A stretch of DNA of 64,000 nucleotides from Mucilaginibacter sp. PPCGB 2223 (GTDB taxonomy: Bacteria > Bacteroidota > Bacteroidia > Sphingobacteriales > Sphingobacteriaceae), in contig NZ_MDJS01000001.1 of assembly GCF_001705515.1 (NCBI RefSeq), positions 1,984,001 to 2,048,000 of the forward strand, in the 5' to 3' direction. The position numbers and the translations under genes are program-made. Below, piece after piece: positions 3,065 to 43,297 of the stretch. The notes under the pieces are model-generated. The model worked only from the letters and a program-made list of their open reading frames with translations. It searched no databases and was not told the origin of the DNA. Each line of letters opens with the position of its first letter. Position 1 is the stretch's first letter.

Positions 3065-3643
3065 ATGAAAGCAAAGTATCTGATGACCGTAAAGTCCGAT
3101 GAGAACAATAACTTGTTGTGCATCATCGCCTTACTGAACCCCGCATAACTACAAGCCCAGCAATTAGAACAAGAGCCCGACGGCTTCCATCCGGAACGCA
3201 ACTTACCCTGCAAAATCTGCGGCGATTACGTCAACGGCAAAAAAGCCTGGTTCGACCAGAACGGCCAGCAATGCCTGCACTGCCACCAAGCCATCAAAGA
3301 CGATATTATCCCCGGCGACCTGACCGACAAAGACTACTTCAAAGAAATCGAACTGGAGCTTTATTTTACCCTCGACCGTAAGGCGATCAACCAGCTTATC
3401 AGGAAAAAGCGCCTCTTTGCTCGCGAGGTGAAGCGCATAGACCAAAAAGGCACCTACTTGCGCCTGTTCCTTTACCCCGACAATCCGGGTTTCTTTCCAC
3501 CCAAAGACCTACTCAAAGGAGGCGTGGTAAAAGACGGTGAAGAGTATGTGTTTGTGCCTTGGTATTTGGTTGTTGATGATCCTAATGAGGTGATCAAGGC
3601 TTATGGAATAGGTAAAGTCATGCGATGGGCTGATATCAAATGA
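3065..3643 (+). pseudogene. zinc-ribbon-type protein gene interrupted by an in-frame stop
   Basis: From the ATG at 3065 (MKAKYLMTVKSDENN) a single frame runs to TGA at 3641-3643. It is broken once by TAA at 3146-3148, after 27 codons. The part after the stop has no good start for over 90 codons yet keeps protein-like composition. It includes a CKICG ... CLHCH pair of CxxC motifs, a central LDRKAINQLIRKKRLF helix and a C-terminal VFVPWYLVVDDPNEV segment. The simplest reading is a nonsense-mutated gene; a GTG at 3428 could still yield a 71-residue fragment. I do not recognise the family. RteC remnants lie directly downstream. Confidence 0.55.
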
Positions 3644-3732
3644 AGGTTTGGGTGACAAGCTCATCATCTTTTGACCATGTCGAACTCGAAGATTTCAAAG
3701 AAGACGAGCAGTAAAACACCAGCAACGACTAA

Positions 3733-3897
3733 AGACTCGGCAGGATCATTGCCAACGAAAAATACCAGGACTACCTCAACATTGCACTCACCAAACTCCA
3801 GGTCGCATCCGAAACCATCCTCCAATCCTTCAAACCTGCCCAATGGGCCGTCAGTCAGACCGGCACCATCGAACTCATCTACGGCTGCCCCCATTAG
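3733..3897 (+). pseudogene. C-terminal fragment of an RteC-family gene
   Basis: This frame is preceded by an in-frame stop and has no start codon. Its 54 codons begin RLGRIIANEKYQDYLN and end with QWAVSQTGTIELIYGCPH before TAG. RteC proteins carry 'ARILANEMLQ.YLN' followed by 'L.WT.SKT.LIELIYAL', so this looks like a decayed middle-to-C-terminal piece. The short frame 3640-3714 just upstream (24 codons, overlapping the previous stop) may be more of the same debris. Confidence 0.5.
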
Positions 3898-6460: not shown

Positions 6461-6463
6461 ACC

Positions 6464-9400
6464 ATGAAGATCAAACCGGAGCTTTATTTCGAAAATTTTA
6501 ATGGTTTTAAGATTGCCGACGCACATTTTGAGCTCGGTTCCAATTTGCATATCCGGGACTATTACTATGTCAAGAGAATTTTTTACAACAGCTTTTTCAC
6601 CAACAGGTTCGCTCTCTTAGTCGCTCAGAAATTACTTGTCCAACATCGTGATCTGATCCGAATGTTAGCCACTACAGAAACCATCAAAAAGACCGAAGCT
6701 GCCATTACCCTGGTCGGTTATGAGAATTACTCTGATCTACTGCTCAGTAATATTCGAAAAATGCTGAATGATTACGTCCGGACAGCATACGGCATCAGCG
6801 AGGACCTGTTCAACCATGATGTTTTCACCAAAGAAAATGTCTTTTTGAAGAATCCGAACAAGATTGCCAACCGGATCATTTTGGTGTTTCCCATCAGCAC
6901 AACGTTTTCCACCTCGATCCGGGTGAGAGGGGAAATCACCGAGATCGCCAGGGATCAGAAACTCAAATGTCATCCGCCTGAATTTATTGACCCCGTAGTT
7001 AATTGCATTGTGATCAGCAACCGACCATTGGAAAAGAATTATGAATTCAAAGAAATAAGCGATTACGAATATGACTACGGGTGGCGAAGCGTCAATGTTG
7101 CGGAAAAAATGGTCAATGTGCAGATCATCGACCAACCCAGTCAACAGGTAAAAGACCGTCATCAGAGACCCATCGATTGCTTTTTCGTGGCCCAGCTTTA
7201 TCTGATCTCGCTGGTCACCAAATGGATAAAAATAAGTGAGTGCGGGGAATGTTACCCAAGCGATAAACAGCAAGAAAAAAGCCTCATTGAGACCAAAATC
7301 ATTCCGGTAACACCCAGTCTGATCTTTGGGTACCCCAAGACCATCGTGCCAGAAAAACATGTCAGTATATTTCCGGCGTTTGATATCAGGAAAAAAAGGG
7401 CAAAGGAGGAGCCGATGATTTATCGCCGGCATTTCAAAAAACTCGAGAACTATTATATCTATTACGTCAGAACAGGTTTTTTTCTTTTGGAGAATTTATC
7501 CGATATTAAAATTTGGCTGGCTGATCTACGTTCCCATGAATTGTCCGGTCTGATCGATAAAAGCATCGTCATCATCACGCCGACAGCCGGCTCTAATTCA
7601 GGCTTCGTTAATTTATTGAATGACATTGTCTTCTCGGAAACGGCGACCATCATTCAGTATAATTCCAGGGAAGAGTATTTACAAAACTTCATCCATTTTT
7701 ACGCTGATGTGATCAGACAAGCGGAGAAAATCATTTTTGTTGATGATGCCGTCGCCACAACCCAGAGTTTTCTGGAGATCGATTTTTTTATCAGAAATGT
7801 ACGGGATGGTAAAGGGACAGAATATTTCATTACGTTGATCGACCGCGTTGATTATTATAATTCGATCAAACTCAGTGCAATACTTGAAGAGTCCAATCAA
7901 ATTGAACAGGTGGAGAAACGTTTTTTTGCTTATCGGCACATCCATGTTTCGCCCATCGTTCACCGCGATAAGTATCCTTACATTTCACTTATGGAAAAAT
8001 TTAAGGAGCTATCCGAAAAATCAGTCCTCGATAGTATGCGGATACATTTCAAAAACCGGGAACGGCATTTTAGACCTGTCGATCTTACCCGGGACTATGA
8101 AAAGTTCGAGCACGAAGACAATATCAAATCGCTGTTATTATTCTTGCTTTTTCATGAATTCTCAGCTTTATTCTACTGTAAAAACGGACGCTTTATTTTC
8201 CAGGGAACTATTCAGAAGGCCTTTGAAAATAACGAAGACCCCAACAGTTGGCAATTCGTTTTGATCCATTTTGAAGAATTAGCCGAGAAATGTTCTCTTA
8301 ACCAGTTTAAAGAATCTTATCCGGCTTATCAACAAGAAATTAAAAATTCATTATTTAAGATATGTAGTTCAGATCCTTTTTATCAGCACCAGAATATTAA
8401 GGAAAGCGCATTCCGATGGATATTGGCCGACCTGGGTGACAGAGTCACCCATATTAATAAAATGAAAAAAGTGGACCGCTCTTTTTTTCAACGACGTACG
8501 GTCAACGGTGTACCGCTTGCATATTCCACCTTTCAGGATTTTAAATTCCTATTAAAAAGAGGCGCCAAGCTGAAAATGAATTACATCTATTCGGTTGAAA
8601 TGCTCTACGCCATCGGTTATATCGTCAAGGGTTTAACACAATATTCGAATGCTGAACGCGCAAGTCAATCACCTATATCTTATCCGATCGATTTTATTAC
8701 CTATTATGTAGGTCTGTTACAAGAGCTCATTATCGAACACGAAGCAAAAGCTTTACAGGTGGTGAAAAATATCAAGACGATCATTGATGCCAATCCGATA
8801 ACGCCCTATGAACATCAAACTTTAAAAAATACCTATAACGACCATTTTATTCATCTGCTACGTATGCTTGTTTTGGAGAATACTTTTATTTTCCACACAG
8901 CTGCTGAAAAATTCATCTCAAAATACAAAGGACCCTTGTTATTCTCGAAGAATGATAGCGAGGAGTTTTTTGAACGCTTGGATGCCGCGATGAAAACCTA
9001 TCCTTTTTACTATACCAACTGGATGCTGTCTCGTTTCGATGCACCCGGTAAGAGCCAAAGACCAAGTCCGGAAAAAGGTAGTTTGATATCCTTTAAGAAT
9101 ATGATGTTTTTGAAGGCTCTTCTAACCGCGGATAAAAGCCCCCGGCCATTAAGCGAGGTTTCCATTGAAATCAAATTGCGCGAAATCCTGCGTCTATGCT
9201 GTGAAATATTGGAGGTGAAAAATGGCGGCGCTTATTTCGCGGTGAAACATAAAAACAATCGTAATTTATCAGAGGAAGGAGACATTGCCATTGTAGCCAG
9301 CTATCAGCATAGTCAAAAAACGGCGTTCAAATCTGCTGATATCACCAAGGAGAGTTTACTCTACAAGATCTTTGATGGAATAAATGAAACCAATAGCGCA

Positions 9401-10600
9401 AACATCTTAACCACAGTCGAACTATCATTGGACGATGAACAAAATTATCGTTTTCGGGATAATCAAAATTTTAGTGCGCGTGATCTTTATCGTCTGTCAG
9501 AGTTTCAGAATGACCTTTATCGTGACTTGTTTTACCTCAGAATTACGGAGATCGAATTTGACGAAAAGAAAAAAAGTTACCTCGTTGTACCACAGGCGAT
9601 CTTATGCTTTTATCACGATAAACTGAGTAAAGTCGAGACTAAAATGGTTCATGATAAGCTCAAATTGATCGCGACGAGCAGCCCTCTTGCTAAGCAATTG
9701 TCGTTAACTGATACGCCGGTCGAACTGCCAAAACAGCGACCCGTGTACAGGCGGTTTGATCCCAAAAAAGTGAGACAGTTGCTGTTGCTCCGTAGCGATC
9801 TGAGTGACTTCATCAACCATCACTTCAACAACGACAGCCTGCGCGCCTATATTGAACTGATCAACAACAAAAAATACTATGACTCACTCAAACATGGTAC
9901 AACAACGTACGAGGAACTGGTCAAAACTCATATAGACAAAGTCGTTAACGCTAAAAATTTCGGGGATGTCGGTTATTACGCCCAATTTCTTAAACGCGCT
10001 TACAAATACCTCATCAATAAATTGCACCTGCTTTCCCTCACCAGCAAGTTATTTGAGGATAAGTCGAAAATTTCCGAAAATGCCTTTGTAACAACATCCG
10101 TGAGAGATATTGCAGGTTTGCTCGAACAGGAAAGCCTTTATATTTTCACCATGTGGCAACCTAATCTCAATAGTTTAGATGACTTAAAAGCCATAAAATT
10201 CATTAATAGTGTCCCGATAGAACTTTGGGGACTTCAAATCAAAATTTTCCACTCCCTGTTGGACGAAATGATTTTTGAATTGCTTTACAATATCAAGAAG
10301 CACACGATCCATATCATGTATGAGGAAATTTCAGAAACAGATCCATTGACCATTACCCTTAGCGGAGAAATCAAAAATGACGGTATCTTCTGGCTGACGA
10401 TCACTAATAATTTTTCTACCAAGCGCCCGGATTTCGTCAGGAATTTAAGTAATAAACTGGCGAAAAGAAACATTTCAGACGGCCTGAATCTCATATATAA
10501 CGTTTTGTTCCAGTCCACCGGACAGCAACTGCTGTTATCTGCAAAACCAGGGGAATTTAGTGTTAGCATACCATTTATTATCAATCGTAAACATGAATAA
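6464..10600 (+). CDS. giant phosphoribosyltransferase-GHKL protein (1378 aa)
   Basis: Near residues 421-437 there is a type-I PRTase signature, two hydrophobics then DD and a TT turn (KIIFVDDAVATTQS). Strand-like segments before it (SIVIITPTAGSNSG, TATIIQYNS) fit a PRTase core. The C-terminus carries a second GHKL-like fold: N-box FELLYNIKKHT near 1272, a degenerate G1 with LTITNN near 1310, and SDGLNLIYNVLF near 1340. A segment near 905-1040 (LREILRLCCEILEVKNGGAYF) is reminiscent of a GAF domain, with low confidence. The protein is cytosolic by composition. Its stop overlaps the start of the receiver gene by eight bases. No known enzyme has this layout to my knowledge. Confidence 0.65.
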   Translation: MKIKPELYFENFNGFKIADAHFELGSNLHIRDYYYVKRIFYNSFFTNRFALLVAQKLLVQHRDLIRMLATTETIKKTEAAITLVGYENYSDLLLSNIRKMLNDYVRTAYGISEDLFNHDVFTKENVFLKNPNKIANRIILVFPISTTFSTSIRVRGEITEIARDQKLKCHPPEFIDPVVNCIVISNRPLEKNYEFKEISDYEYDYGWRSVNVAEKMVNVQIIDQPSQQVKDRHQRPIDCFFVAQLYLISLVTKWIKISECGECYPSDKQQEKSLIETKIIPVTPSLIFGYPKTIVPEKHVSIFPAFDIRKKRAKEEPMIYRRHFKKLENYYIYYVRTGFFLLENLSDIKIWLADLRSHELSGLIDKSIVIITPTAGSNSGFVNLLNDIVFSETATIIQYNSREEYLQNFIHFYADVIRQAEKIIFVDDAVATTQSFLEIDFFIRNVRDGKGTEYFITLIDRVDYYNSIKLSAILEESNQIEQVEKRFFAYRHIHVSPIVHRDKYPYISLMEKFKELSEKSVLDSMRIHFKNRERHFRPVDLTRDYEKFEHEDNIKSLLLFLLFHEFSALFYCKNGRFIFQGTIQKAFENNEDPNSWQFVLIHFEELAEKCSLNQFKESYPAYQQEIKNSLFKICSSDPFYQHQNIKESAFRWILADLGDRVTHINKMKKVDRSFFQRRTVNGVPLAYSTFQDFKFLLKRGAKLKMNYIYSVEMLYAIGYIVKGLTQYSNAERASQSPISYPIDFITYYVGLLQELIIEHEAKALQVVKNIKTIIDANPITPYEHQTLKNTYNDHFIHLLRMLVLENTFIFHTAAEKFISKYKGPLLFSKNDSEEFFERLDAAMKTYPFYYTNWMLSRFDAPGKSQRPSPEKGSLISFKNMMFLKALLTADKSPRPLSEVSIEIKLREILRLCCEILEVKNGGAYFAVKHKNNRNLSEEGDIAIVASYQHSQKTAFKSADITKESLLYKIFDGINETNSANILTTVELSLDDEQNYRFRDNQNFSARDLYRLSEFQNDLYRDLFYLRITEIEFDEKKKSYLVVPQAILCFYHDKLSKVETKMVHDKLKLIATSSPLAKQLSLTDTPVELPKQRPVYRRFDPKKVRQLLLLRSDLSDFINHHFNNDSLRAYIELINNKKYYDSLKHGTTTYEELVKTHIDKVVNAKNFGDVGYYAQFLKRAYKYLINKLHLLSLTSKLFEDKSKISENAFVTTSVRDIAGLLEQESLYIFTMWQPNLNSLDDLKAIKFINSVPIELWGLQIKIFHSLLDEMIFELLYNIKKHTIHIMYEEISETDPLTITLSGEIKNDGIFWLTITNNFSTKRPDFVRNLSNKLAKRNISDGLNLIYNVLFQSTGQQLLLSAKPGEFSVSIPFIINRKHE

Positions 10601-11150
10601 GAGAAAAATAATCATCATCGAAGATGTTGAAGAACACTGGAAAAAACTTTACAGTATGCTTCGCCAAAAATATGACGTCTATCCCGAACGTTTGGATCAA
10701 TTTAAAGCGTTACGGGGCCAGCTGGCCGCAGTTTATGGCGAAGGAACGGAAGATAATCTTATCGAAAAAAATGATAAACTGATCAAAGCGACGATCAGCG
10801 ATTTTGCTGCGGAACTTTGCCTGGTTGACTACGAACTCATGGAGGGTAACGAAATGTGCAACGGCATCAGGTTCAGCGAAGACTACCTGTTTAATAAAAT
10901 AATTTTGTTCATCACCGGAGTGAAAGGTGAAAATAGTGATGAAATAAGGAACAAGATCAAAGAGCACTGTGAGGGTATCGGCCCAGGAACCAATACTGGT
11001 AAAGATGACAATCAAAACCACGTAGACTTTCTTTTTAAAGAAAAGATGAACGAAGACTTTCGAGTAAGATTGATGCGCTGGCTCGCTAAGTTTTTTAAAA
11101 GCAATGATACCGATGATGACGAAAGATTGGATCCTAATATTCTAAAATAA
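10593..11150 (+). CDS. stand-alone receiver (REC) domain response regulator (185 aa)
   Basis: I take the ATG at 10593, inside the last codons of the upstream gene, as the start. The receiver signature is complete: acidic pair ED at residues 10-11 after a IIII strand, phospho-acceptor Asp79 in LVDYELMEG, Thr108 in ILFITG and Lys149 in FLFKEKM. The spacing between these sites is longer than in classical CheY-type receivers, implying insertions. There is no DNA-binding output domain. It probably accepts phosphate from, or is regulated by, the GHKL proteins encoded upstream and acts through protein contacts, perhaps with the membrane protein that follows. Confidence 0.75.
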   Translation: MNKRKIIIIEDVEEHWKKLYSMLRQKYDVYPERLDQFKALRGQLAAVYGEGTEDNLIEKNDKLIKATISDFAAELCLVDYELMEGNEMCNGIRFSEDYLFNKIILFITGVKGENSDEIRNKIKEHCEGIGPGTNTGKDDNQNHVDFLFKEKMNEDFRVRLMRWLAKFFKSNDTDDDERLDPNILK

Positions 11151-11155
11151 TTAAA

Positions 11156-11722
11156 ATGAATCAACCTGACGAAACGGAATATACGAAGCTTAAAAACGAA
11201 TTTGTCCAGCAACATAAAAACTGGAAGGACTTTTTACCGCTGTTAAAGCAACCAGGTGACTATCGGTCTGTCAAAACCCTGGAAGCTGATATCAATCGCC
11301 TGAACGACTTTATTGTGATCTTCTCCGGCTTATGCTATGCCATTTCCATACAAGCTGCGGTCGAAGACCCCAAGGGCCATCGACGTGAAACTCTTAACCT
11401 GGTCAACAATGTCAAAGATAAAGTTATCTATCAGCACTTGTCACCATTGACAAACCGACTCAACCATTTGGTCAACCGGGCGAACATGATAGTTGCTTAC
11501 GTGGCATTATTCGTTGGGTTATTGGGTGTCGGATTGGCAGTCTACCCCTTGCTTAATGACCCCGTACCGCACTTATTGAAAAAACTTGATGAGATAGAGC
11601 ATAAGATAGATAGTATAAATACATCAGCGGGCAAGATAAAATTATTACCAATTACACCTATTGAACAAGTGGATACAACAAATCACATTAAACATAAAGA
11701 AGACGGAATAAAAGCACAGTAA
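11156..11722 (+). CDS. small membrane protein, last gene of the PRTase/GHKL/REC operon (188 aa)
   Basis: It starts six bases after the previous stop. The N-terminal ~115 residues are helical and charged. One strong transmembrane segment follows (MIVAYVALFVGLLGVGLAVY, about residues 116-136), then a short coiled-coil-like LLKKLDEIEHKIDSI and a polar tail. No family is recognised. As the only membrane component of the operon it could be the effector or an anchor for the receiver protein; this is inference from position. Confidence 0.7.
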   Translation: MNQPDETEYTKLKNEFVQQHKNWKDFLPLLKQPGDYRSVKTLEADINRLNDFIVIFSGLCYAISIQAAVEDPKGHRRETLNLVNNVKDKVIYQHLSPLTNRLNHLVNRANMIVAYVALFVGLLGVGLAVYPLLNDPVPHLLKKLDEIEHKIDSINTSAGKIKLLPITPIEQVDTTNHIKHKEDGIKAQ

Positions 11723-12172
11723 ATTTTTAATCCGTTACTGCTCTTTTGCTTCGTCATTGAACTTAACAATGACATATGTAAATCAAAACCAACAAGTGCC
11801 GACGATATGATACGACGACGGTCTCCTCGATTGGCGTTTATTGGAAAGTTCTGATCTAAATCTTCGTTTTGCCTAAATCATAAGAATTGAAGATATATGG
11901 CAAATGTGCGGACACAAAGGTCCCATATGTTTTTTGATGAACGGTTCTGTTGCATAGTTTAAAGTAAAAAAACAAATGTTCAGACTATTAAATCGATATC
12001 ATGCTTTTAATATTTATTTATATTTATATAATCTGACGCTATTTCGTTATTTTATCAAAAAGCAATCATTTGTTTTGACGAATTTACCAGTGATAAAATG
12101 ACGATTGTTTAGTAAATTTGATTAATCCTTTGCATTTTATAAATTAAATGAGCAAAGGTAATTTGAAAGAAA
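11723..12172. other. A/T-rich intergenic region between two cargo operons
   Basis: No convincing gene is seen in 450 bases. A 7-bp inverted repeat, GTCATTG (11753-11759) and CAATGAC (11767-11773), follows the upstream operon and could be a weak terminator, although it lacks a T-tract. A TAAATTTG sequence at 12113-12120 matches the Bacteroidota -7 box TAnnTTTG and lies 52 bases before the next start codon. No well-spaced -33 TTTG was found. Confidence 0.45.
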
Positions 12173-12808
12173 ATGGTTGTAGAAACGCAATTTGTACATA
12201 CAAATAAGCCGGTTGAAACTGTGGACTATGGTCATACAGTGATACCTGCAAATAGGCTGGAGTTTTTATACCGGAAATGTACGGAAGTTCTCAAACGCAA
12301 TCCCGGTAATGTACTCGAAGTAGGCGTCTACAAGGGCGGCACATTGTTGGCGCTCGCTAAGGCGATGTATGAAGTTTGCCCACAGTATACTATTTACGGG
12401 GTGGACACCTTTAGCGGGCATCCTTATACAGATGGTCATCCAGTCCACTACACTGGCAAGTACGCTGATGTCGACCTCGCTGAATTAAAGAAATTCCTTT
12501 TGACCGTACCGTATACTGGAAATATAAAACTGTACAGAGGACGAATAGAAAAAATATGGCCTACGATCCCGGTAAACAACCTGTCTTTCGCGCATATTGA
12601 TTGCGATCTGTATGTCCCGATAAAATATTGTTGTGTGAACATCCCCGAAAAATTCGAAGATGGCGCCGTTATGTACTTCGATGACTATGGACATGACCAC
12701 TGCCCTGGTGCCACTCGCGCAGTCAACGAGGTTTTCGGTGCAAAAAAGTATGTCAATGAAGTTATTCTTGATGATCTAACAAACTGGTCCTGCTTTATAG
12801 ATTTTTGA
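12173..12808 (+). CDS. TylF/macrocin-O-methyltransferase-like SAM methyltransferase (211 aa)
   Basis: A class-I SAM-binding motif LEVGVYKGGTL lies near residue 48. The TylF-family signatures follow: AHIDCDLYVPIKY near 140 and MYFDDYGHDHCPGA near 167, where the acidic residues bind metal and substrate in the characterised sugar O-methyltransferases. It begins a co-directional run of seven genes with gaps of at most nine bases or overlaps. Its substrate here is unknown; linkage to an ABC transporter and two unknown proteins suggests modification of a small molecule or an envelope sugar. The upstream region holds a candidate TAnnTTTG box. Confidence 0.8.
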   Translation: MVVETQFVHTNKPVETVDYGHTVIPANRLEFLYRKCTEVLKRNPGNVLEVGVYKGGTLLALAKAMYEVCPQYTIYGVDTFSGHPYTDGHPVHYTGKYADVDLAELKKFLLTVPYTGNIKLYRGRIEKIWPTIPVNNLSFAHIDCDLYVPIKYCCVNIPEKFEDGAVMYFDDYGHDHCPGATRAVNEVFGAKKYVNEVILDDLTNWSCFIDF

Positions 12809-12817
12809 ATAGTAGTA

Positions 12818-13852
12818 ATGGAGCAAACGACGTATCTCGCAATTTTGGATAATTTAAATGCACATGATAAACCCAAATACAGGGCTATTGTCAATGCTTT
12901 TAAAAATTGGAAATTATCTGGTGGAAAGGAGATTATCGACAACGTTTCCAATGATTACTTTGTACTAAAGCTCCCTTTGTTGGCCGTAATTGATCATTTA
13001 TTGAAGTTCAAAGGCGTTCATTCTTGGTTAGATGTAAGGGATCAGTATGATGAGGCTTGTAAAAGCCAAATCAAAAAGTTCTGTGTTGGTGGGAAAATTG
13101 ATAAAAAAGAAGAATATAGTAAATATTTAGGCCGGGGTTTTAAGGAAATAGCTGTGAGCAGATGTTGTCCTGTACACCGTATGGTTAGCGATATTGGATG
13201 CCATCCAAATAATTCCCTTAGTGAGGATGAATGTAATTTGTTAAGGGAGCGTCTTGTGAAAAACTCTTTGACAAAAGATGATAAACTGATGAAATTCAGA
13301 GTCGGAAAGCCATTTTTTCCGATTTGGGTCACGTTCGTTGGAGAAAAAGACAAATTCTCTGCTCCAACAGAGTTTGCAAATGGAGATTTTAAACATTATC
13401 AACTTCGCATCTGCCTCGGACTTTCACCAAGAGAAGATAGTTTTCCTCAGTTTGTAATCACTTATAAACTAGACAAATCGGAAAGACTACGATTTCCTAC
13501 AGTGATCGATGCCGGTACCTATGATTTTTTTAGCCCAACTGATAAAAAGGAAAAATCGAAGCATGGCTATACGGCCAATAGTTCTAACAGTCACGAAATA
13601 TTTTCCAGATTAATGCTCAGTGACAATTTTAAAAGAATGTTCAAAAAAGAGCTAGATGAAATTGAGGTTGAAAAGATAAATCTTTCAAAACCAAGTGCTG
13701 AAATAGAAAAGTCAATTATGGCGATAAACGAAAAAATTCAAAAAAAAATTATTGAGGAGACATTTTTGAAAGGCCGCCCCGAATCCGTCTATTACAGCAA
13801 TCGTGATATTGCTATTTCAGAATTACTTTCATATGAAGTAACATTACCATAA
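12818..13852 (+). CDS. unknown protein A of the ABC-transporter operon (344 aa)
   Basis: I do not recognise this protein. It has no transmembrane segment or signal peptide. Residues 85-135 are rich in Cys and His (KKFCVGG, RCCPVHRM, DIGCHPNN, DECN), compatible with a small metal site. A middle beta-rich region (FFPIWVTFVGEKD, HYQLRICLGL, QFVITYKL) is followed by a basic helical tail. It starts nine bases after the methyltransferase and ends one base before the next gene, so it is almost certainly co-translated with its neighbours. A/T-rich codon use matches the rest of this operon and differs from the tra genes. Confidence 0.75.
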   Translation: MEQTTYLAILDNLNAHDKPKYRAIVNAFKNWKLSGGKEIIDNVSNDYFVLKLPLLAVIDHLLKFKGVHSWLDVRDQYDEACKSQIKKFCVGGKIDKKEEYSKYLGRGFKEIAVSRCCPVHRMVSDIGCHPNNSLSEDECNLLRERLVKNSLTKDDKLMKFRVGKPFFPIWVTFVGEKDKFSAPTEFANGDFKHYQLRICLGLSPREDSFPQFVITYKLDKSERLRFPTVIDAGTYDFFSPTDKKEKSKHGYTANSSNSHEIFSRLMLSDNFKRMFKKELDEIEVEKINLSKPSAEIEKSIMAINEKIQKKIIEETFLKGRPESVYYSNRDIAISELLSYEVTLP

Positions 13853-13853
13853 T

Positions 13854-16037
13854 ATGTCGAACTTAAGCGTCTTTCTTTCTTCAAACAGAAATCTGCCATA
13901 TTCTTTTTTTGGAAAAAGTCTGATTGATTTCAACAATGATGAATTAGAAGACCTGCTTCATATTTGTCTGGAAGAAAAAAGCATTATTTCACCTTTATTA
14001 AGTAAAGAAGACGGCCCAATTGAGTTTCTATCAGAAGTACTCAGAACGACAAGTATCGATGTATTTGACAACTACTCCGATACAATTGATAAGATATTCT
14101 TAGAGGCGATTCAAGAAAAAGAGCGCTTCCAAACCTGGTCAGAATTACAAGTTCGCATTATCATTAATGCGTTAAGACTTTCAAATAGAATGAAACGAGG
14201 AATTCAAAAGGATTCTTTAATTGGCGTTATAAATAGTGCTCATTGGGATGCCGTTAGCAAAATTCCCGAAGCTGTACTCAAGGATACGGCAACGCTCATC
14301 TCGATCTATCCATCCCAAAATTCCGACTTTTGGATGAAAATTGATATTCAGAGATTTCCTTTTCTTATCGGCCCTTGTATTAATGGATTAGCCGGGTATC
14401 CAGACGCTTGTATGGAGTTTCTTAAAAAATTGACGCCGAAGGAAATAAAACCTGATTTGCAATTTCCACTTTCAAAATTTATCAGGAATATGTTCAACTC
14501 CAGGTTAGATGATAATGCTAAAAGAAAGGCATATAGGAATTTTTATAAACTAAATTACAGGCTACAGGAGGAAATTAATTCAATTATCGCACTTGTTTTT
14601 GAAACGGATGATCCAATTTTTAAACTCGTAGAGCCTATTAAGTTTTGGAAATATTATGTGAGAAGTAAATCATTTGCTGCTACTCCTAAACGAAAATCTT
14701 TCTTCCCAGCGTCCGAGTTTTACGATACAAGCATTTTTCCATATGGAATACAGAACTTGGACATCGCAACAAAATATAATTTACAGGCGCAAGTTTTTAA
14801 ACTGCCGGATTATGTGGACGATGCGCCATTACTGCTAAATAGAGACTTAAAATCGGCATTGGAAAAAATCAAACTTAATAAGAAATATGATTTTATTGCT
14901 CGCGATTTTAAAGAAGGAAATATACTGATAACTTATCCTATTGAAGCCTTTAAACCTAATCAACAGGGTGAGGGGATGGATATCGCTGTTCTTAATTTAT
15001 TCAATTACGCTATTATAAGCAATGTTGTTCCTGACGCAACAATTTACAATGAGTTATATGAAAAAAACATCCATACACCAAAATTGGTGAGATTTTGTGC
15101 AACTCTTCTTCAAATCATTAAAGCAAGTTCAAATAAAAGAGAAGTTAATGTATATGTTAATGATTCTGGCATAAAGGGAGTTATGGACGATAGTTTTGGC
15201 AAATTGCTTGGCTACTTTAAAGATCATTTTGATCGTAATATTATCTTTTCCTTTCACTTTATTGTTGTTAAAGGTCAAAAAAAGCTAATTGACCGTCTTA
15301 ATACGCCCAATTCTATTGTAATAACTACAGGCCCTGTATTGGCCCAAATCTTCGAATGGCAGCTCAGCGGCAAGAATTCCTTTGAATATTTTTCAAACTC
15401 TAAATTTGTGGAAGAGCTCCTAAATATTGAAGAAAAGACTGAAGCTATAAAACTTTTAATTTCCTCCCTAGAAACTTCGTTATTACACCAATCATTGCAC
15501 ATTAACATTCCAATCGAAAAATATAGGGATAACCCAGAGCACCAGAGCGTTGTGCATAAATATGCAAAACTCACGTATTTTACGAGTGAGTACATTGCGA
15601 AAAACATTCAGCGTTACGTTGACTTTGTTGAAAAGAACCAAAAGTTGTTCAAACTTTCAGGTCAGAAACCTAGTAGACGTTCCATAGAACAGGCTATTTT
15701 GTTCTCTTACATATTTGGGCACCATACAAAACTCAACACATCCGATGTGAATTTGAATCAAACGCATAATGAGATTTATAAAAAGGTGATTGTTTCATGG
15801 TCCCAAGCTCTAAACAGGTTAGGTATGAACTTAGTAATGCATAGGGAAAAAGCTACTGATCCAGCAACTATTGATACGGTCGATTTCCTGCAAGCCGTTT
15901 TAAACGAGATTATTACATTTGGTGAAGAGGATTATTTGCTTTCGTCGATAGAGCCACAAGACCTAGAACCCTGGTTTAATAATCATCTTTACAAGAGACC
16001 ATCAAATACACTTTCAACTCAAGTTGCAAATGCATAA
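13854..16037 (+). CDS. unknown protein B of the ABC-transporter operon (727 aa)
   Basis: I do not recognise this protein. It is soluble by composition, helical in the first 250 residues, and has a mixed alpha/beta core around 360-520 (VNVYVNDSGIKGVMDD, NIIFSFHFIVVKG, SIVITTGPVLAQ) before a helical end. No Walker, nuclease or kinase motif is visible. Its final codons contain the ATG of the transporter ATPase, so translation of the two is probably coupled. That coupling ties its function to the transporter rather than to a neighbouring cassette. Confidence 0.75.
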   Translation: MSNLSVFLSSNRNLPYSFFGKSLIDFNNDELEDLLHICLEEKSIISPLLSKEDGPIEFLSEVLRTTSIDVFDNYSDTIDKIFLEAIQEKERFQTWSELQVRIIINALRLSNRMKRGIQKDSLIGVINSAHWDAVSKIPEAVLKDTATLISIYPSQNSDFWMKIDIQRFPFLIGPCINGLAGYPDACMEFLKKLTPKEIKPDLQFPLSKFIRNMFNSRLDDNAKRKAYRNFYKLNYRLQEEINSIIALVFETDDPIFKLVEPIKFWKYYVRSKSFAATPKRKSFFPASEFYDTSIFPYGIQNLDIATKYNLQAQVFKLPDYVDDAPLLLNRDLKSALEKIKLNKKYDFIARDFKEGNILITYPIEAFKPNQQGEGMDIAVLNLFNYAIISNVVPDATIYNELYEKNIHTPKLVRFCATLLQIIKASSNKREVNVYVNDSGIKGVMDDSFGKLLGYFKDHFDRNIIFSFHFIVVKGQKKLIDRLNTPNSIVITTGPVLAQIFEWQLSGKNSFEYFSNSKFVEELLNIEEKTEAIKLLISSLETSLLHQSLHINIPIEKYRDNPEHQSVVHKYAKLTYFTSEYIAKNIQRYVDFVEKNQKLFKLSGQKPSRRSIEQAILFSYIFGHHTKLNTSDVNLNQTHNEIYKKVIVSWSQALNRLGMNLVMHREKATDPATIDTVDFLQAVLNEIITFGEEDYLLSSIEPQDLEPWFNNHLYKRPSNTLSTQVANA

Positions 16038-16770
16038 CCCATTGTTTTCTTTAAATGAAGTTTCAAAAGTTTACGAAAACATAAATCGTGAAAAATCTCA
16101 GGCACTTTCAAATATTACAATAAGTCTTTTAGGTAATAATATTACCTGTATCATGGGGAATTCCGGCTCGGGCAAAACAACACTCTTAAGGACTATTGCG
16201 AAATTGGAGACGGCAACTTCTGGAACAATTGATTTTAATTATGACAGTGACAAATTGGGCTATGTTTTTCAAAACAACTCTGTCTTTCCATGGATGACAG
16301 TCGCGGAGAATATCGGCTACGCAATGAAAATTCGAAGAATTGAAAAAGAAAACATCGATGAAAAGGTCAAACTACTTGTGGATATGGTCAATTTGCCGCA
16401 GACACATTTAAATAAATATCCAAAGGAACTTTCGGGAGGTGAATTGCGGAGACTCGCGATCGCTTCTGCGCTATCCAAGGACACGCAACTGCTGTTGCTT
16501 GATGAACCGACCTCTCAGTTGGACGACATGAATAAATGGTCCATTCAGGATCTTGTGCAGAGAATATGGGCCAGCAAAAAAATGGCCGTGCTATGGGTGA
16601 CTCATGATATCGAAGAAGCTATCTATATGTCTAATCAGGTTATCATTATGAAAAAAGGGCAAATTGTGGAAAATGTACCTGTCGAACTGACTTATCCAAG
16701 GACCAATGAAATGAGGGTTTCACCTCGGTTTTTAGCATTAAAATTAAAAATTAGTGAACTATTATGCTGA
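16030..16770 (+). CDS. ABC transporter ATP-binding protein, NitT/TauT type (246 aa)
   Basis: I use the ATG at 16030, which overlaps the previous stop; a TTG two codons earlier is possible. All nucleotide-binding motifs are present: Walker A GNSGSGKTT, a Q-loop region with FQNNSVFPWMTVAENI, signature ELSGGELRRLAIA, Walker B LLLLDEP and switch His in VTHDIEEA. The PWMTV segment is typical of SsuB/TauB/NrtD-like ATPases that power uptake of nitrate, sulfonates, taurine or pyrimidine precursors. Its end overlaps the first permease gene by seven bases. The substrate cannot be told from the ATPase. Confidence 0.92.
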   Translation: MHNPLFSLNEVSKVYENINREKSQALSNITISLLGNNITCIMGNSGSGKTTLLRTIAKLETATSGTIDFNYDSDKLGYVFQNNSVFPWMTVAENIGYAMKIRRIEKENIDEKVKLLVDMVNLPQTHLNKYPKELSGGELRRLAIASALSKDTQLLLLDEPTSQLDDMNKWSIQDLVQRIWASKKMAVLWVTHDIEEAIYMSNQVIIMKKGQIVENVPVELTYPRTNEMRVSPRFLALKLKISELLC

Positions 16771-17549
16771 ATGCCCGGAAAAATTTGAGAACACTTATAT
16801 TGCTCATCATTGTACTATGTGCGTGGGAAGTAGTTGCCGATTTATTTGCGCAACCAAGGCTATTTCCATCATTAAGCCACCTGTTAACGTTTTCTCTTCC
16901 CTCGATTGCTACCTTCTCAATTGACGGTAAATCCGGATACGACGTAGCCCTTTTTGTAATTTTAAAGCATTCGTTATTGTCCGTTTACCGTTGTATTTTC
17001 GGCTTTGCTATCGGTTACGTAACTGGCATATTATATGGCTTAAGCGGTCAAAAAGAATCTCGGCCCGAAAGGAAAATGCCCATTCTCTTAACGTTTTCAC
17101 GTAATATTCCATTATTGGCTTTGATTCCGCTGTTTTTGTATTGGTTCGGCGGTACAGAAATCGGAATGATCCTATATATCGCATTTGCTGTTTTTATCAT
17201 TGTAGCAACAAATACGCAACAAGCTGTTTTCAACGTACCTCAAAATCTTATTGAACAAGCGCAAATGCTTGGAGCTGACAGGAAAAGAATCATATGTGAC
17301 ATAATCTTTCCGTGTATACAGGGCGAGCTAGCGGGCGCCATAAAATATTTAGCCAGTTTGATCTGGGCTGTGTCGTTGGCTTCGGAATATTTGGCCAGTT
17401 CCAGTGGCATGGGATTTTTGATCTACCAATCTTATTCTTTTTCGGATATGGGGAAATTAATTGTTTTATCGATAGTATATTGTTTTTTAAGCATTTGCAG
17501 TTATCACTTTGTAAATTTGTATTTTAAAAAGAAATTAACCTGGATATAA
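16764..17549 (+). CDS. ABC transporter permease 1, NitT/TauT type (261 aa)
   Basis: A polytopic inner-membrane protein of the binding-protein-dependent permease family. The cytoplasmic EAA-like loop that contacts the ATPase is visible (LIEQAQMLGADRKRIICDIIFP), followed by a GxGFLI-like segment. The length is normal for the SsuC/TauC group. Its start lies inside the last codons of the ATPase gene. A second, different permease follows the binding protein, so the channel is probably a heterodimer, which is uncommon in this family. Confidence 0.9.
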   Translation: MLNARKNLRTLILLIIVLCAWEVVADLFAQPRLFPSLSHLLTFSLPSIATFSIDGKSGYDVALFVILKHSLLSVYRCIFGFAIGYVTGILYGLSGQKESRPERKMPILLTFSRNIPLLALIPLFLYWFGGTEIGMILYIAFAVFIIVATNTQQAVFNVPQNLIEQAQMLGADRKRIICDIIFPCIQGELAGAIKYLASLIWAVSLASEYLASSSGMGFLIYQSYSFSDMGKLIVLSIVYCFLSICSYHFVNLYFKKKLTWI

Positions 17550-17552
17550 GTC

Positions 17553-18827
17553 ATGAACAAGAAAATTGTCTTCTGGATAACCGCCATTATTATCATTGCT
17601 GGGTCCGTCTACCTGTTCTTTGTAAAAAGGAACTCGGTTAATAATAACTTGACTACCGTTAAATTTGGAATGCTACCCTACGGCGATCATTCTCAGGCGA
17701 TCATTGCCGCAAAAAACGGATGGTTTAAAGAAGTCGGTATTGATTTTCAATACGAATTGATAAAGGTTGAAGCTGTCTTACCAGATCTGAATAATAATCG
17801 GCTTGATGTTTCCTCTTGTGCTCCTGGAATCATACTTTCTTCTTATGACAATGCCTCAAATATTTGTATGTTTTCATTCGCTGATGTTTTCCAGGGGTAT
17901 GCTATCTTGGCGCAGCCAGGCGGTAACTACAAAAACTACCAAGAATTATTAAAATCTGGTTTATCAGATAAAGACGCAATAAAGGTGGCGGTTTCACAAC
18001 TAAAAGGGAAAACTTTTGCCTACCCGTCTGAAACGGCTATCAAGCCATTTATTGATATTTTGCTTGAAAAGGCTGGTATGACCAGAAGCGATTTTAAATC
18101 ACTGGTTCAGGATGATGCTATCAATATCAACGCCATGCGGAATCATCAGGCGGATTTCCAGGTCGGTGGCGTACCTTCTAGAATAACACTACAAAAGGAG
18201 GGTTATAAGGAAATCGTTAGTTCTATGGATATTGTAAAGGCCGCTATGCCATCACCCGATTCCAAAGAGCTATCCAGCGTTTTTAATGACGGCTGGGCAA
18301 TAACGAAAACTTATTATGATTCCCACCGGGAGACAGTACTTCGATTAGCGTCAGTTAATTTTCGGATCAATGATTTCATTTTGCAACATCCTTCACAGGC
18401 CCTTGCTATTCATATGCCATATCTTAGCCAGATTACTGGGGAAAAATACACCACTGAAGATGGAACGGTAATTTACGATCACCTAGATCCATTTTACAAT
18501 TTTGCGGCTCAGCGCTCTTGGTTTTTTAATGATAAGGACCCCTTGTATTATAAGAACCTCTATGGCAGCATTATCAACAGTTTCAAAAATCAGCATATTT
18601 ACAAGTCGAAGATTCCCGCAGTTGACGATGTTATCTTTGCGGATGACGTGTACAAGTCGCTAGACAGTTTAAAGAATACAACAGAAAAAAAATTTCTAGC
18701 CATCGACAAAAAACCTTTTTTGAAAGAATCTTCGGAGAATAAGGCGAAGTTAGCGGAAGCCCACCACCAATATTCAATCTACAACTATTTAGATGCCGAT
18801 AAAATTACCGCAGACATCCTTAAATAA
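17553..18827 (+). CDS. membrane-anchored ABC substrate-binding protein, NMT1/SsuA-like (424 aa)
   Basis: The N-terminus is one hydrophobic helix (residues 5-24) without a lipobox Cys, so the protein is likely tethered to the inner membrane with its binding domain outside. The mature part opens with the family pattern VKFGMLPYGDHSQAIIAAKNGWFKEVGID and continues with the two-lobed NMT1/THI5-like fold, including DVSSCAPGI and a central FAYPSETAIKPFID hinge region. At 424 residues it is longer than typical SsuA or TauA (about 320), with an added helical C-terminal part. It lies between the two permease genes and overlaps the second by 35 bases. The ligand is unknown. Confidence 0.85.
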   Translation: MNKKIVFWITAIIIIAGSVYLFFVKRNSVNNNLTTVKFGMLPYGDHSQAIIAAKNGWFKEVGIDFQYELIKVEAVLPDLNNNRLDVSSCAPGIILSSYDNASNICMFSFADVFQGYAILAQPGGNYKNYQELLKSGLSDKDAIKVAVSQLKGKTFAYPSETAIKPFIDILLEKAGMTRSDFKSLVQDDAININAMRNHQADFQVGGVPSRITLQKEGYKEIVSSMDIVKAAMPSPDSKELSSVFNDGWAITKTYYDSHRETVLRLASVNFRINDFILQHPSQALAIHMPYLSQITGEKYTTEDGTVIYDHLDPFYNFAAQRSWFFNDKDPLYYKNLYGSIINSFKNQHIYKSKIPAVDDVIFADDVYKSLDSLKNTTEKKFLAIDKKPFLKESSENKAKLAEAHHQYSIYNYLDADKITADILK

Positions 18828-19599
18828 GATTAATCGGGAAATATTAAAGTTTGTTCCGGTTGTAGTGTTCCTCTTTCTTTGGCAGGTTTGTTCGTTGCTC
18901 TTTGGGGGGACAAATTTTCCAAGCTTGGTAGATATTGCTTCGTCTCTCTTTAATTCAAAAACGGTTGTTGCCATTATCTCCTCACAGGGCGGCGGAGACA
19001 ATGGTATGTTAGGTCATTGGTTTTTGACCTTTTGTGTTCACCTAGCGGGACTAATTTCCGGAACAGCCTTGGGATTGGCATTTACAATTTTTCTTTTTCT
19101 TAAAAAATCAATAAGAAATGTTCTTGAGCCTTTTTTTACGGTAGCAAGAACTATTCCGCCCCTTATTTTCGCACCGTTTCTCCTGCTCATTTTTAATGGT
19201 GGAATATTAGCGAATTTTGCAATTGTAGCCATTTATGTTTTTTATGCTGTTGTCGTTTACGGTTTGAATTCCCTTGACCTCGTACCGATGGCATATATAG
19301 AGTTGGCTAAGATTCATAATAGTAATGGAAAAAGTATTGTTTTCTATATCTTATTACCCGGAATGCTCCCGCAGTTCTATGGTGGTCTTCGCGTCGTGAT
19401 TTCGATCAGTCTTGGTGTCTTGGTTGTGGGGGAATATATAGGGCCAGGGGACGGCCTGGGTAAGGTTATGAAATATGCGATGTCCTATTCACGGCTCGAT
19501 TTGCTAATTGCCGCCATCATTTGTTGCGTCGTCGTGGCTATATTAAACGACCTACTGATCACGCGGTTTTTTAAGCGTTTTATGAAGTGGGATAACTAG
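18793..19599 (+). CDS. ABC transporter permease 2, NitT/TauT type (268 aa)
   Basis: A second polytopic permease with its own EAA-type loop (MAYIELAKIHNSNGKSIVFYILLPGMLPQ) and a GPGDGLGKVM segment. It starts 35 bases inside the binding-protein gene. Its sequence differs clearly from permease 1, so the two are not a recent duplication. It closes the seven-gene operon; the following 146 bases separate it from the tra region. Confidence 0.9.
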   Translation: MPIKLPQTSLNKINREILKFVPVVVFLFLWQVCSLLFGGTNFPSLVDIASSLFNSKTVVAIISSQGGGDNGMLGHWFLTFCVHLAGLISGTALGLAFTIFLFLKKSIRNVLEPFFTVARTIPPLIFAPFLLLIFNGGILANFAIVAIYVFYAVVVYGLNSLDLVPMAYIELAKIHNSNGKSIVFYILLPGMLPQFYGGLRVVISISLGVLVVGEYIGPGDGLGKVMKYAMSYSRLDLLIAAIICCVVVAILNDLLITRFFKRFMKWDN

Positions 19600-19745: not shown

Positions 19746-20249
19746 ATGTTAAACTCTATTTCCTGGCTGCAATATATTGCCGCCGTTATTTTACTCACAA
19801 CCTCTTGGTACGCCTACATCGGCCTCCGTTATTTCCAACCGGAGCTCTCACGCTTCCTCCGCATTAAACCTAAATCATCCGGTGCCTTACCTGAAGTAGC
19901 TACCGCCCAGCCGGTGATGGCCGTGGCGCGTCCCGAACCCGGAACAAATCTCGCCGAACCTGATGAACTCGTCTTCAGCATCTCCGCCGCAGACGGCATC
20001 AGCGACCAAACGCTACCCCAGGGACCCGCCGATGACCTGCTCGCCGAAGCCGAAACCCTCATCAGCGCCTTCACTGACAACAACGACAAACCCGGTTTCC
20101 TATCGCTACTCCGTGTATTGATTAGCAAATACGAAGTCTTTGCCGATGAGATCAGCCTGCCGCAACTCATCAGCGCCCTTCAACTCCCCGCCAAAAAACT
20201 CCCATTTATCATCCAGGCCAACGAATGGCCCCAAACATTTACCGCATGA
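19746..20249 (+). CDS. tra-region membrane-anchored protein of unknown function (167 aa)
   Basis: One N-terminal transmembrane segment (LQYIAAVILLTTSWYAYIGL) is followed by a Pro/Ala-rich linker and a cytosolic-looking acidic domain. Its TGA overlaps the ATG of traE, so the two are translationally coupled. I do not recognise a named family. Position directly before traE suggests a role in the transfer apparatus. Confidence 0.7.
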   Translation: MLNSISWLQYIAAVILLTTSWYAYIGLRYFQPELSRFLRIKPKSSGALPEVATAQPVMAVARPEPGTNLAEPDELVFSISAADGISDQTLPQGPADDLLAEAETLISAFTDNNDKPGFLSLLRVLISKYEVFADEISLPQLISALQLPAKKLPFIIQANEWPQTFTA

Positions 20250-20584: not shown

Positions 20585-20625
20585 ACGTTTAAACCGGGTA
20601 TCTAATAAATTTCCGGTTTAAACGT
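20585..20625. terminator. bidirectional terminator-like hairpin, 13-bp arms
   Basis: The arms ACGTTTAAACCGG (20585-20597) and CCGGTTTAAACGT (20613-20625) match perfectly across a 15-base loop. The hairpin lies between convergent traE and the TPR gene and includes the latter's stop codon. It would end transcripts from both sides, so traF and traG downstream probably need another promoter. Confidence 0.65.
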
Positions 20626-22237
20626 TCTTGCTCGCCTTGTATTGACGACACTTCGGGCAATCACAGGAAACGTTCTCTAGTTTTTCAAGTCTTTTGTAAC
20701 CCTCTAAAGCGACACCCTCCAAAGTTTTCATGTTTTTATAATAGCCAAATGATTCCTTTCGTAATAAGTCAGCTTCGTGCCGTTCTCCTCTGAGCGTGGC
20801 CATCGCGCTGAGCATCTGCGTATTAAAGGCCAAACCAAAATACAGCTTGTCATCCAGCAATTGCCTATCTTTCATCGCAATTGCATAATAATGTAGTGCT
20901 TTTTTTGCCGCAAAAATACCATAAGACCCTTCTGACCAAGAAGGATAATTTTTATTAAATTCATCATACGTTCGAGCAATCTGTAATACATCATCGGTCG
21001 ATTTTTGGTATGCGTTTACATATAGTTCATAGGGTTCGAGCATCGGCTGAAATCTATCTTTAAGCAATAAAAATTTTTCTTCGCTACAATACGAATGGTA
21101 TATTCTTGCAGTAACAATAAGGTCCGGCAAGCAATTGGCATGAAAAAAAAAGCATTCCGTATTGAGGTCTGCCTTAAAAAAAGCCTCCATCGCAATCATT
21201 GCTGCTTCGAAATTCGTATTAAAGTCACGTAGGTTTTTGCTAGTAGGATTTTCCACCACTTCAGCGAGCGCTCGTTTCTGTAATGTATAAGATAATAAAG
21301 AATAAGCTTTACTATCTATAGTAGCTGCATTTTTTCTAATTTCAATAGCTTCATGCATCAACTTTATTTTTTCTTCACCAGTATATGTAGTCGCCAGGTT
21401 ATGTAAACTATTCGCTAATAAAGTTAAGCCTGTGACTAATCCATCATTTTTAGGGTTAAAGATTTTAATAGCCCTTTCGAGCGCAGCTTTGGTTTTTTTA
21501 AAAAAGACTCTAGCCTTTACTCTATCTACATCCAAGTAAATAGTACCTATGCTGTAAGATATAAAAGCGTCCAAAACATCGCCGTCTTCATTGTAATTTC
21601 GAGCATTTTTAAAATGCTTGATCGCTCTTCTATAATCTTTAACTTTATGATAAAAAAAGGCAGCCTGAGAATAGGCCTCATAACTTTTAAAGGTCTTTAT
21701 TGCATTTTCGTACAGTAAAATTGTTTGATTAATATACGCTGGTTCATTAAAGTTTATCGAAGAAAGCGAGGCTTTTAATAAATATTCCTCCGACAGATCT
21801 TTTAAATTTTGATTTATTTGACTGATTTCAGCATGTGTTTGATCCCGTCGTTTTAAAAGGGTTTCTACCTCTGAATCCAACTCCCGATCATTCAGTTTAA
21901 TTCGAGCTTCATCTATTTTCCCTTCATCAAATAATCGTTTTGCTTCTTTTAACCGTTCTTTGTTCAATGGCACTGCATTGAACATTTTGTAAAGATTATT
22001 TATCTCTTCTTTAAACAGCCCAATGCGCTCGTTTAGGGTATTAATTTCACGATTTATTTTTTCCCGATATTCAAGTGCAGATGGAAGACTATTTTCGAGA
22101 GCCTCTTGTTTTTCTTTCAATTGTGACAATAGATCGGCATAGTTCTGAGATCGATTTAATATTTGGTTAATGTAAATGTGAGAGTCAACAGCGTTACCTA
22201 CTGTAATATTGTTCATACCGGTTACTGCTATACTCAT
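20618..22237 (-). CDS. TPR protein with N-terminal amyloid-signalling-like motif (539 aa)
   Basis: Residues 6-25 read TGMNNITVGNAVDSHIYINQ, closely matching the last 20 or so residues of the protein encoded just upstream. A coiled-coil-like stretch follows (about 33-160), then TPR-like helical repeats, for example the segments AAFFYHKVKDYRRAIKHFKN and SYSIGTIYLDVDRVKARVFF. It ends with a CDCPKC cluster. No P-loop or NACHT/NB-ARC signature is present, although known bacterial receptors with such motifs are usually STAND ATPases. I infer a sensor that templates assembly of the partner. It is antisense inside the tra region and A/T-rich. TPR assignment is good; the signalling role is inference. 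Confidence 0.75.
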   Translation of the reverse strand: MSIAVTGMNNITVGNAVDSHIYINQILNRSQNYADLLSQLKEKQEALENSLPSALEYREKINREINTLNERIGLFKEEINNLYKMFNAVPLNKERLKEAKRLFDEGKIDEARIKLNDRELDSEVETLLKRRDQTHAEISQINQNLKDLSEEYLLKASLSSINFNEPAYINQTILLYENAIKTFKSYEAYSQAAFFYHKVKDYRRAIKHFKNARNYNEDGDVLDAFISYSIGTIYLDVDRVKARVFFKKTKAALERAIKIFNPKNDGLVTGLTLLANSLHNLATTYTGEEKIKLMHEAIEIRKNAATIDSKAYSLLSYTLQKRALAEVVENPTSKNLRDFNTNFEAAMIAMEAFFKADLNTECFFFHANCLPDLIVTARIYHSYCSEEKFLLLKDRFQPMLEPYELYVNAYQKSTDDVLQIARTYDEFNKNYPSWSEGSYGIFAAKKALHYYAIAMKDRQLLDDKLYFGLAFNTQMLSAMATLRGERHEADLLRKESFGYYKNMKTLEGVALEGYKRLEKLENVSCDCPKCRQYKASKNV

Positions 22238-42209: not shown

Positions 42210-42220
42210 AATAATTAACC

Positions 42221-43297
42221 ATGTCACAGCTATTACGTCAGCACGCAGAACAACTATACGCACACGAACTGGAAGAACTTAAGAAACAGGACAGTGCTCA
42301 ACGCCCGGCAAATTGGGCGCTCTCGCCACAATCAGTGGTTACCTACCTGGTGGGTGGTAAACTAAAAAATGGTTTTGAGGTATCGCCTAAGTATATCGGC
42401 AATAAACGGCTGATGGAGATTGCGGTCGCGACGCTGACCACCGACCGGGCTTTGCTGCTGTATGGTTTACCCGGAACGGCCAAGAGCTGGGTAAGCGAGC
42501 ACCTGGCTGCGGGCGTGAGCGGCGACTCGACATTGATCATCCAGGGTACCGCCGGAACCAGCGAAGAAGCGATCCGCTACGGCTGGAATTATGCCCGTTT
42601 GATCGCGGAAGGACCCTCTGCCGGCGCATTGGTCGAAACACCGGTGATGCGGGCCATGAAAGACGGGAAGATCGTCAGGCTGGAAGAGCTGACCCGCATA
42701 GGGGCCGATGTACAGGATACACTGATCACCATCCTATCCGAAAAAACATTGCCAGTGCCCGAGCTGAATATCGAAGTTCAAGCGGTCAAAGGCTTCAACG
42801 TCATCGCCACAGCTAATAACCGTGATAAAGGTGTTAACGAGTTGTCGAGCGCCTTAAAACGCCGCTTCAACACCGTGATCCTACCTTTACCCGATTCGAT
42901 CGAGGAAGAGATCGATATTGTGCGCCGCCGGGTAGAAAGTTTTGAGAAAGTCATGGAGCTGCCTGCCGAACCGCCGGCTTTACAAGAGATCAGGAGGATC
43001 GTGACCATTTTCAGAGAGCTGCGTAACGGGGTGACACTGGATGGCAAGACCAAGATCAAAATACCTACCGGGACGTTAAGTACCGCCGAAGCTATTTCGG
43101 TGGTGAACAGCGGCTTATCCATGGCGGCTTATTTTGGCGACGGGCAATTAAAGGCCGCCGATCTGGCAGCAGGTATCATTGGTACCGTGATCAAAGACCC
43201 CGTGCAGGATAAAGTGGTATGGCAGGAATACCTGGAGACGGTTGTGAAACCGCGCAGCGACTGGAGTGATATTTACCGTGCCTGCCGCGACCTATAA
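42221..43297 (+). CDS. MoxR-type AAA+ ATPase (358 aa)
   Basis: Walker A is LLYGLPGTAKSWVSEHL near residue 82. The Walker B region reads KIVRLEELTRIGADVQD and sensor 1 is FNVIATANNRDKG, followed by arginine-finger-bearing LSSALKRRFNTVILPLP. MoxR ATPases act with VWA-domain proteins as chaperone-like remodelling machines. It sits eleven bases after DUF5691 and 18 before DUF5682. The protein appears complete. Confidence 0.9.
   Translation: MSQLLRQHAEQLYAHELEELKKQDSAQRPANWALSPQSVVTYLVGGKLKNGFEVSPKYIGNKRLMEIAVATLTTDRALLLYGLPGTAKSWVSEHLAAGVSGDSTLIIQGTAGTSEEAIRYGWNYARLIAEGPSAGALVETPVMRAMKDGKIVRLEELTRIGADVQDTLITILSEKTLPVPELNIEVQAVKGFNVIATANNRDKGVNELSSALKRRFNTVILPLPDSIEEEIDIVRRRVESFEKVMELPAEPPALQEIRRIVTIFRELRNGVTLDGKTKIKIPTGTLSTAEAISVVNSGLSMAAYFGDGQLKAADLAAGIIGTVIKDPVQDKVVWQEYLETVVKPRSDWSDIYRACRDL

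Follow-up and report, generated by a model that had tools for sequence, protein, structure and literature searches.

A putative import-and-modify operon carried as cargo of a CTnDOT-type integrative conjugative element in Mucilaginibacter

Positions 12173-19599 of a 64,000-nucleotide stretch of the Mucilaginibacter sp. PPCGB 2223 genome (NZ_MDJS01000001.1, positions 1,984,001 to 2,048,000; hereafter the window, whose numbering we use throughout) hold a seven-gene operon borne as cargo, between a broken rteC gene and the tra genes, by a conjugative element of the CTnDOT type. The operon joins a TylF-type methyltransferase and two orphan proteins, A and B, to an ATP-binding cassette (ABC) importer. 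We put the chances at about even that it is an accessory import-and-modify operon for a small-molecule substrate, borne as cargo by an integrative conjugative element (ICE) of the CTnDOT type. A small molecule would be captured by a binding protein tethered on the periplasmic side of the inner membrane, and two permeases, forming a heterodimeric importer, and an ATPase would bring it inside. The TylF-type enzyme would then O-methylate the imported compound or a product of it, and A and B, translated from the same mRNA, would serve as cytoplasmic partners, whether as enzyme, sensor or carrier. The protein families and the gene arrangement are observed directly; from them we infer the substrate class, the reaction, the shared transcript and the parts that A and B play. 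The benefit may be nutritional, detoxifying or signalling.

A compact cluster of seven genes

Seven open reading frames (ORFs) on the forward (+) strand fill the interval, 7414 of whose 7427 bases are coding. They encode, in order, the TylF-type O-methyltransferase, A, B, the ABC ATPase, permease 1, an NMT1-like binding protein and permease 2, and are separated by 9, 1, -14 (-8 if the ATPase starts at ATG rather than TTG), -7, 3 and -35 bases. A first-pass annotation, made from the letters of this DNA, had described seven tightly spaced or overlapping genes with the ATPase start inside protein B. Both observations hold: no gap exceeds 9 bases, three of the six junctions overlap (B/ATPase, ATPase/permease 1 and binding protein/permease 2), and the ATPase starts at 16024 or 16030, inside B, whose stop codon occupies 16035-16037. 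The three overlapping junctions, together with gaps of 9, 1 and 3 bases at the others, suggest coupled translation. On this layout, a single tight operon-like cluster is supported. The A/T-rich composition claimed earlier is likewise evident, at 35-44% G+C per operon gene against 48-52% across six measured genes of the tra, mob and topoisomerase classes. G+C content at third codon positions (GC3) is 0.44 in the TylF-type gene, 0.32-0.33 in A and B and 0.39-0.42 in the transporter genes.

The transporter genes form a recognizable importer. The ATPase (16030 with ATG, or 16024 with TTG, to 16770, +) matches PF00005 at 104 bits and has the Walker A, LSGG and Walker B motifs and the switch histidine. 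The permeases share 22% identity, and both match PF00528: permease 1 (16764-17549, +; several transmembrane segments) at 59.1 bits and permease 2 (18793-19599, +) at 73.2 bits. The substrate-binding protein (17553-18827, +) belongs to the NMT1/SsuA-like family PF09084 (33.5 bits, cut-off 20.5); its score of 32.2 bits against TIGR01728 (SsuA_fam), below the cut-off of 163.5, counts against the SsuA-like class. A transmembrane segment lies at residues 3-26, and the translation has no cysteine near the N-terminus. PF09084, PF00528 twice and PF00005 thus bear out the earlier call of a NitT/TauT-type importer, with binding-protein-dependent (BPD) permeases and an ABC ATPase. No named substrate equivalog (SaoA, TauB, NtrCD, SsuC or others) is assigned, as every transporter match listed in NCBIfam, 25 of 208 for the ATPase and all of those for the other three proteins, is below its curated cut-off; the best model among those listed for the ATPase is SaoA, at 177.9 bits against a cut-off of 360. 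The genome has another NMT1-type importer of its own (C1:1475067), and identity of the two is ruled out; from a reading of neighbouring ORFs rather than a search result, that second importer may serve nitrate.

In a phylum sample the binding protein was found in one of 296 genomes, its own. Among 188 genomes of the class, a two-row profile matched two, its own and one in which the match is partial and spans 90 positions (E 1.7e-5). Six plasmid records match, one over 90% of the protein's length: Paracoccus yeei NZ_CP020444.2, where the relative is part of a complete two-permease importer ending in a short-chain dehydrogenase/reductase (SDR) oxidoreductase gene. Identity to this importer is 26% over 389 aligned positions for the binding protein and 36% for the ATPase; the best permease pairs reach 31% and 26%, the former between permease 1 and the second Paracoccus permease. 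Upstream, beyond two opposite-strand genes, is a second transporter cluster with genes for an N-carbamoyl-D-amino-acid hydrolase and a Zn-dependent hydrolase. The context of the importer, with its SDR gene, looks metabolic, and we count it for the import-and-modify reading.

The methyltransferase gene (12173-12808, +) encodes a 211-residue class I S-adenosylmethionine-dependent O-methyltransferase of the TylF/NovP type. The earlier call of a TylF-like enzyme is substantiated by its match to PF05711 (49.2 bits, Pfam cut-off 23) and by alignment with NovP (2wk1; phmmer E 1.1e-8), in which HIDCDLY (141-147) and FDDYG (169-173) align with the NovP motifs MDGDLY and VDDYM. In TylF/NovP enzymes these aspartate motifs hold the metal and have a base role. 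Relatives in the PDB are antibiotic-pathway enzymes, namely NovP, mycinamicin MycF and CalS11. Sugar or secondary-metabolite families, the usual if not strictly defining context of TylF genes, are absent from the operon and from the scanned neighbour genes.

Matches to the methyltransferase occur in 12 of 247 phylum genomes, its own included, where a second TylF-family match lies on a different contig. We inspected 21 other loci: 12 places in 11 other genomes (about 15-18 kb per place, one contig being 4.8 kb) and nine of 36 plasmid records (about 5 to 8 kb per side). Three of the nine plasmid loci carry no annotation; of the six that do, five lie near sugar, polysaccharide, non-ribosomal peptide synthetase (NRPS) or polyketide genes and one shows none. 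A profile built from six importer permeases matched one locus in 21, L021 in genome G006, and two more (L023 and L049) match an ABC ATPase and lack a permease of this kind. L021 carries, co-directionally at 8074-12649 (-), genes for an SBP_bac_3 protein, a permease, an ATPase, a 257-residue, seemingly hydrophobic protein without a Pfam family, and a fusion of a TylF domain to a BluB-like nitroreductase. This TylF domain is the top-scoring relative outside the window's own genome in the 247-genome phylum sample (E 3.8e-17). Used as a query against 99 genomes and against plasmids, the fusion found mainly nitroreductase-domain matches, uninformative on any importer-TylF link. Genes for a C5 DNA methylase and an HNH endonuclease lie about 3 kb from the L021 importer cluster.

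Protein A (12818-13852, +; 344 residues) and protein B (13854-16037, +; 727 residues) have no transmembrane segment by hydropathy. Judged by codon usage learned from seven other genes of the window, each scores best of the six frames in its own, and a simple base-composition model puts the probability of an open frame this long at about 5e-11 for A and 2e-22 for B. With the best score in their own frame and an open length far beyond chance, A and B are probably real genes. No match to A was found in Pfam, PADLOC, NCBIfam, PDB sequences, plasmids (PLSDB) or IMG/VR patterns, and the best PHROGs hit has E 0.12. The best hits to B are at chance level (Pfam E 0.072, PHROGs E 0.081), with nothing in NCBIfam, PADLOC, PDB sequences, plasmids (PLSDB), phages or the IMG/VR and genome_contigs patterns. 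The IMG/VR scans (A, B and binding protein) and the genome_contigs scans (B and the binding-protein alignment) confirmed nothing; they use short exact peptide patterns, and absence there is therefore weak evidence. At E 0.001, A was found in two of 395 genomes of a phylum sample: its own and G040, whose match (E 7.2e-4, 18.7 bits) reads through two stops and was set aside as chance. B was found in its own genome and no other among 399 of the family. Single-sequence structure predictions gave mean pLDDT values of 37.5 for A and 34.3 for B, and the models were not used. Gene arrangement is what suggests, as in the first-pass annotation, that A and B may work with the imported or modified compound.

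The cargo slot of the conjugative element

That the operon is mobile cargo follows from the conjugative genes around it and from a site that is empty in relatives. The window contains matches above cut-off to TIGR03783 (TraG), TIGR03782 (TraJ) and MobC, a relaxase domain, a DUF4134 gene and a match to the MobB model at 339.6 bits, below its cut-off of 400. This gene set confirms the island location proposed in the first-pass annotation. The first ORF of the tra region (19746-20249, +), which bounds the slot on the right, lies 146 bases past the last operon gene and is followed by the DUF4134 gene; its homologues occur in 57 of 120 genus genomes, its own counted. Left of the cargo is a truncated, broken remnant of rteC (3637-3885, +), recognized by tblastn and by DNA match. 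In tblastn searched against this stretch alone, the remnant matches the rteC proteins of all eight related elements at 38-46% (E 8e-12 to 5e-18), with in-frame stops; at the DNA level seven of the eight relatives match at 69-78% over 96-113 bases. With the rteC remnant on its left and the tra genes on its right, the slot here holds about 16 kb of cargo.

Relatives of the element were drawn from the 56 other genomes with a homologue of the 19746-20249 ORF: the DNA upstream of high-scoring homologues was compared in ten of them, one place in each, with two near contig ends omitted. An rteC gene is present at eight of these ten loci by a profile built from the same eight, and Pfam RteC was confirmed on both that were scanned. 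Six of the eight have 129-153 bases between the end of rteC and the counterpart of the 19746-20249 ORF, and their slot is empty. Together with the rteC remnant, these empty sites lend support to the earlier suggestion of transferable cargo. The slot is filled in the other two, by about 4.3 kb of other genes in L084 and about 8.8 kb in L086. What fills the L084 slot is a five-gene block on the opposite strand (15021-18560), with no confident Pfam family in the two of its five proteins scanned.

The operon shares its slot with a PRTase/HATPase/receiver-like module (4052-11722), encoding proteins of 802, 1378 and 196 residues and a 188-residue protein with transmembrane segments. Counterparts of the module occupy the same slot in L086 (865-8577, -). 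There, a 2132-residue protein matches both large window proteins, the larger at 25.7% over 1065 aligned positions and the smaller at 23% over 499; a 259-residue protein matches the 196-residue protein at 26% over 129, and a third small protein is in the corresponding position without a BLAST match. The L086 proteins show similarity to PRTase-CE (E 0.0017), HATPase_c (E 0.012) and Response_reg (E 0.0011), all below curated cut-offs. PADLOC returned no match for the four window proteins or the three from L086, and the 1378-residue protein was found in one of 247 phylum genomes, its own, and on no plasmid. The ABC operon is absent from L086, and none of its seven proteins is matched in the ten fetched loci. 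Because L086 has the module alone in its slot, a necessary link between operon and module is rejected and the operon is a cargo unit in its own right.

The window has two further features of note. Among the tra genes, and on the opposite strand, 20618-22237 (-) encodes an A/T-rich protein of 539 residues whose match to TPR (PF13424, E 2.2e-4) is below threshold. A possible second cargo block at 39421-46685 contains tandem SWIM zinc finger, DUF5691, MoxR-like AAA, DUF5682 and VWA_CoxE genes.

Weighing the import-and-modify reading

In favour of an import-and-modify operon are the compact cluster, the importer and TylF families, the Paracoccus importer, the importer-TylF cluster of G006 and the cargo slot. 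Several observations weigh against it. A and B are without convincing relatives, so there is no comparative evidence tying them to the importer. At the Paracoccus locus no TylF-type gene is annotated, and a tblastn search there for TylF, A and B came up empty. An importer permease accompanies TylF in just one of 21 other loci; that locus has another importer type, and the count is consistent with the earlier remark that NitT/TauT importers rarely travel with TylF enzymes. In a tree of 22 TylF rows the window and G006 domains do group (support 80/77); the branches are long, the grouping was flagged as possibly spurious, and we treat the G006 parallel as a lead rather than proof.

GC3 also shifts along the cluster, and the operon may for this reason be a mosaic whose parts are unlinked, tylF-A-B forming one unit and the ABC importer another, set end to end in the ICE slot and sharing no pathway. 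The GC3 of A and B differs from the rest (no formal test was applied), an importer of this type exists in Paracoccus without TylF, A or B, and the slot holds an unrelated module alongside. A mosaic sits poorly with three overlapping junctions of six and spacings of 9, 1 and 3 bases at the others, which suggest coupled translation, and with the recurrence of importer and TylF in one cluster in G006; we consider it unlikely. The first-pass annotation had also raised a defence function. Here the imported or methylated molecule, or A and B, would have a sensor or effector role directed at phages or competing elements. What points this way is the neighbourhood, and only that part of the suggestion stands: the slot is shared with the PRTase/HATPase/receiver-like module, whose L086 relative has a weak match to PRTase-CE (E 0.0017, below cut-off), "CE" denoting conflict systems. 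Divergent orphans are common among conflict proteins. The proteins themselves do not bear defence out. PADLOC was null for A, B, permease 1 and the binding protein and gave permease 2 a chance-level match (E 0.072); the ATPase matches are generic ABC (25 of 58 families listed), the TylF match spans 45 residues, and neither A nor B has a Pfam family above chance. Defence systems based on an importer with a binding protein are not known to us. A narrow literature search found no paper combining all terms, and we hold a defence role to be unlikely. Membership of MADS (PADLOC mad1-mad8) was rejected, its gene set not being present among the ten proteins given: the ATPase matches mad3 (98.5 bits) and mad8 (39.2 bits), the TylF-type protein matches mad2 (15.4 bits over 45 residues), and the ten proteins yield no further mad match among those listed (25 of 58 for the ATPase).

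Self-protection is the least probable of these alternatives, and we regard it as very unlikely. A toxic hydroxylated compound would be taken up and O-methylated, in keeping with PDB relatives of the methyltransferase from antibiotic pathways (NovP, MycF and CalS11). Mobile elements often bear resistance cargo. An importer, however, would raise rather than lower the internal dose of a toxin, and no resistance family is found among the matches to the seven proteins (25 of 208 NCBIfam matches listed for the ATPase).

Returning to import and modification, a bolder form can be envisioned, which we think quite doubtful. ABC importer and TylF enzyme would constitute a recurring module, built at least twice with unrelated importers (NMT1-type on the mobile element of the window and SBP_bac_3-type in G006), and the O-methylated molecule would be passed to fast-evolving partners, here A and B, to serve in signalling or conflict and not as a nutrient. 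An importer-TylF module or operon is not described in the titles and abstract openings of the literature matches listed, nor is an operon of this kind in passages of PMC13092281 and PMC7824862. The operon is an unusual if modestly surprising piece of cargo, and the orphans A and B are its interesting part. If the seven genes serve one pathway, a conjugative element spreads a capacity for uptake and methylation, and two sizeable orphans gain their first functional context. Independently of that function, the rteC-tra junction is documented, by empty and filled examples, as a cargo slot in this group of ICEs, and is a place to seek more orphan systems.

Comparison with known systems

The window importer shares with NitT/TauT-type importers (nitrate, taurine, sulfonate and NMT1-like) an NMT1-like binding protein, BPD permeases and an ABC ATPase; unlike them, it has two different permeases and a binding protein with an N-terminal transmembrane segment. 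The Paracoccus yeei importer differs in gene order, ends in an SDR gene and lacks TylF, A and B. With the TylF, NovP and MycF O-methyltransferases the window enzyme has family and aspartate motifs in common. Five of the six annotated plasmid TylF loci inspected are near sugar, polysaccharide, NRPS or polyketide genes, whereas the window gene is part of an ABC importer operon. The L021 locus of G006 is similar to the window in that an ABC importer and a TylF domain are encoded in one co-directional cluster, and in the N-terminal stretch of the binding protein, which in L021 reads as hydrophobic. It differs in its binding-protein family, its single permease, the fusion of TylF to a nitroreductase and the absence of A and B.

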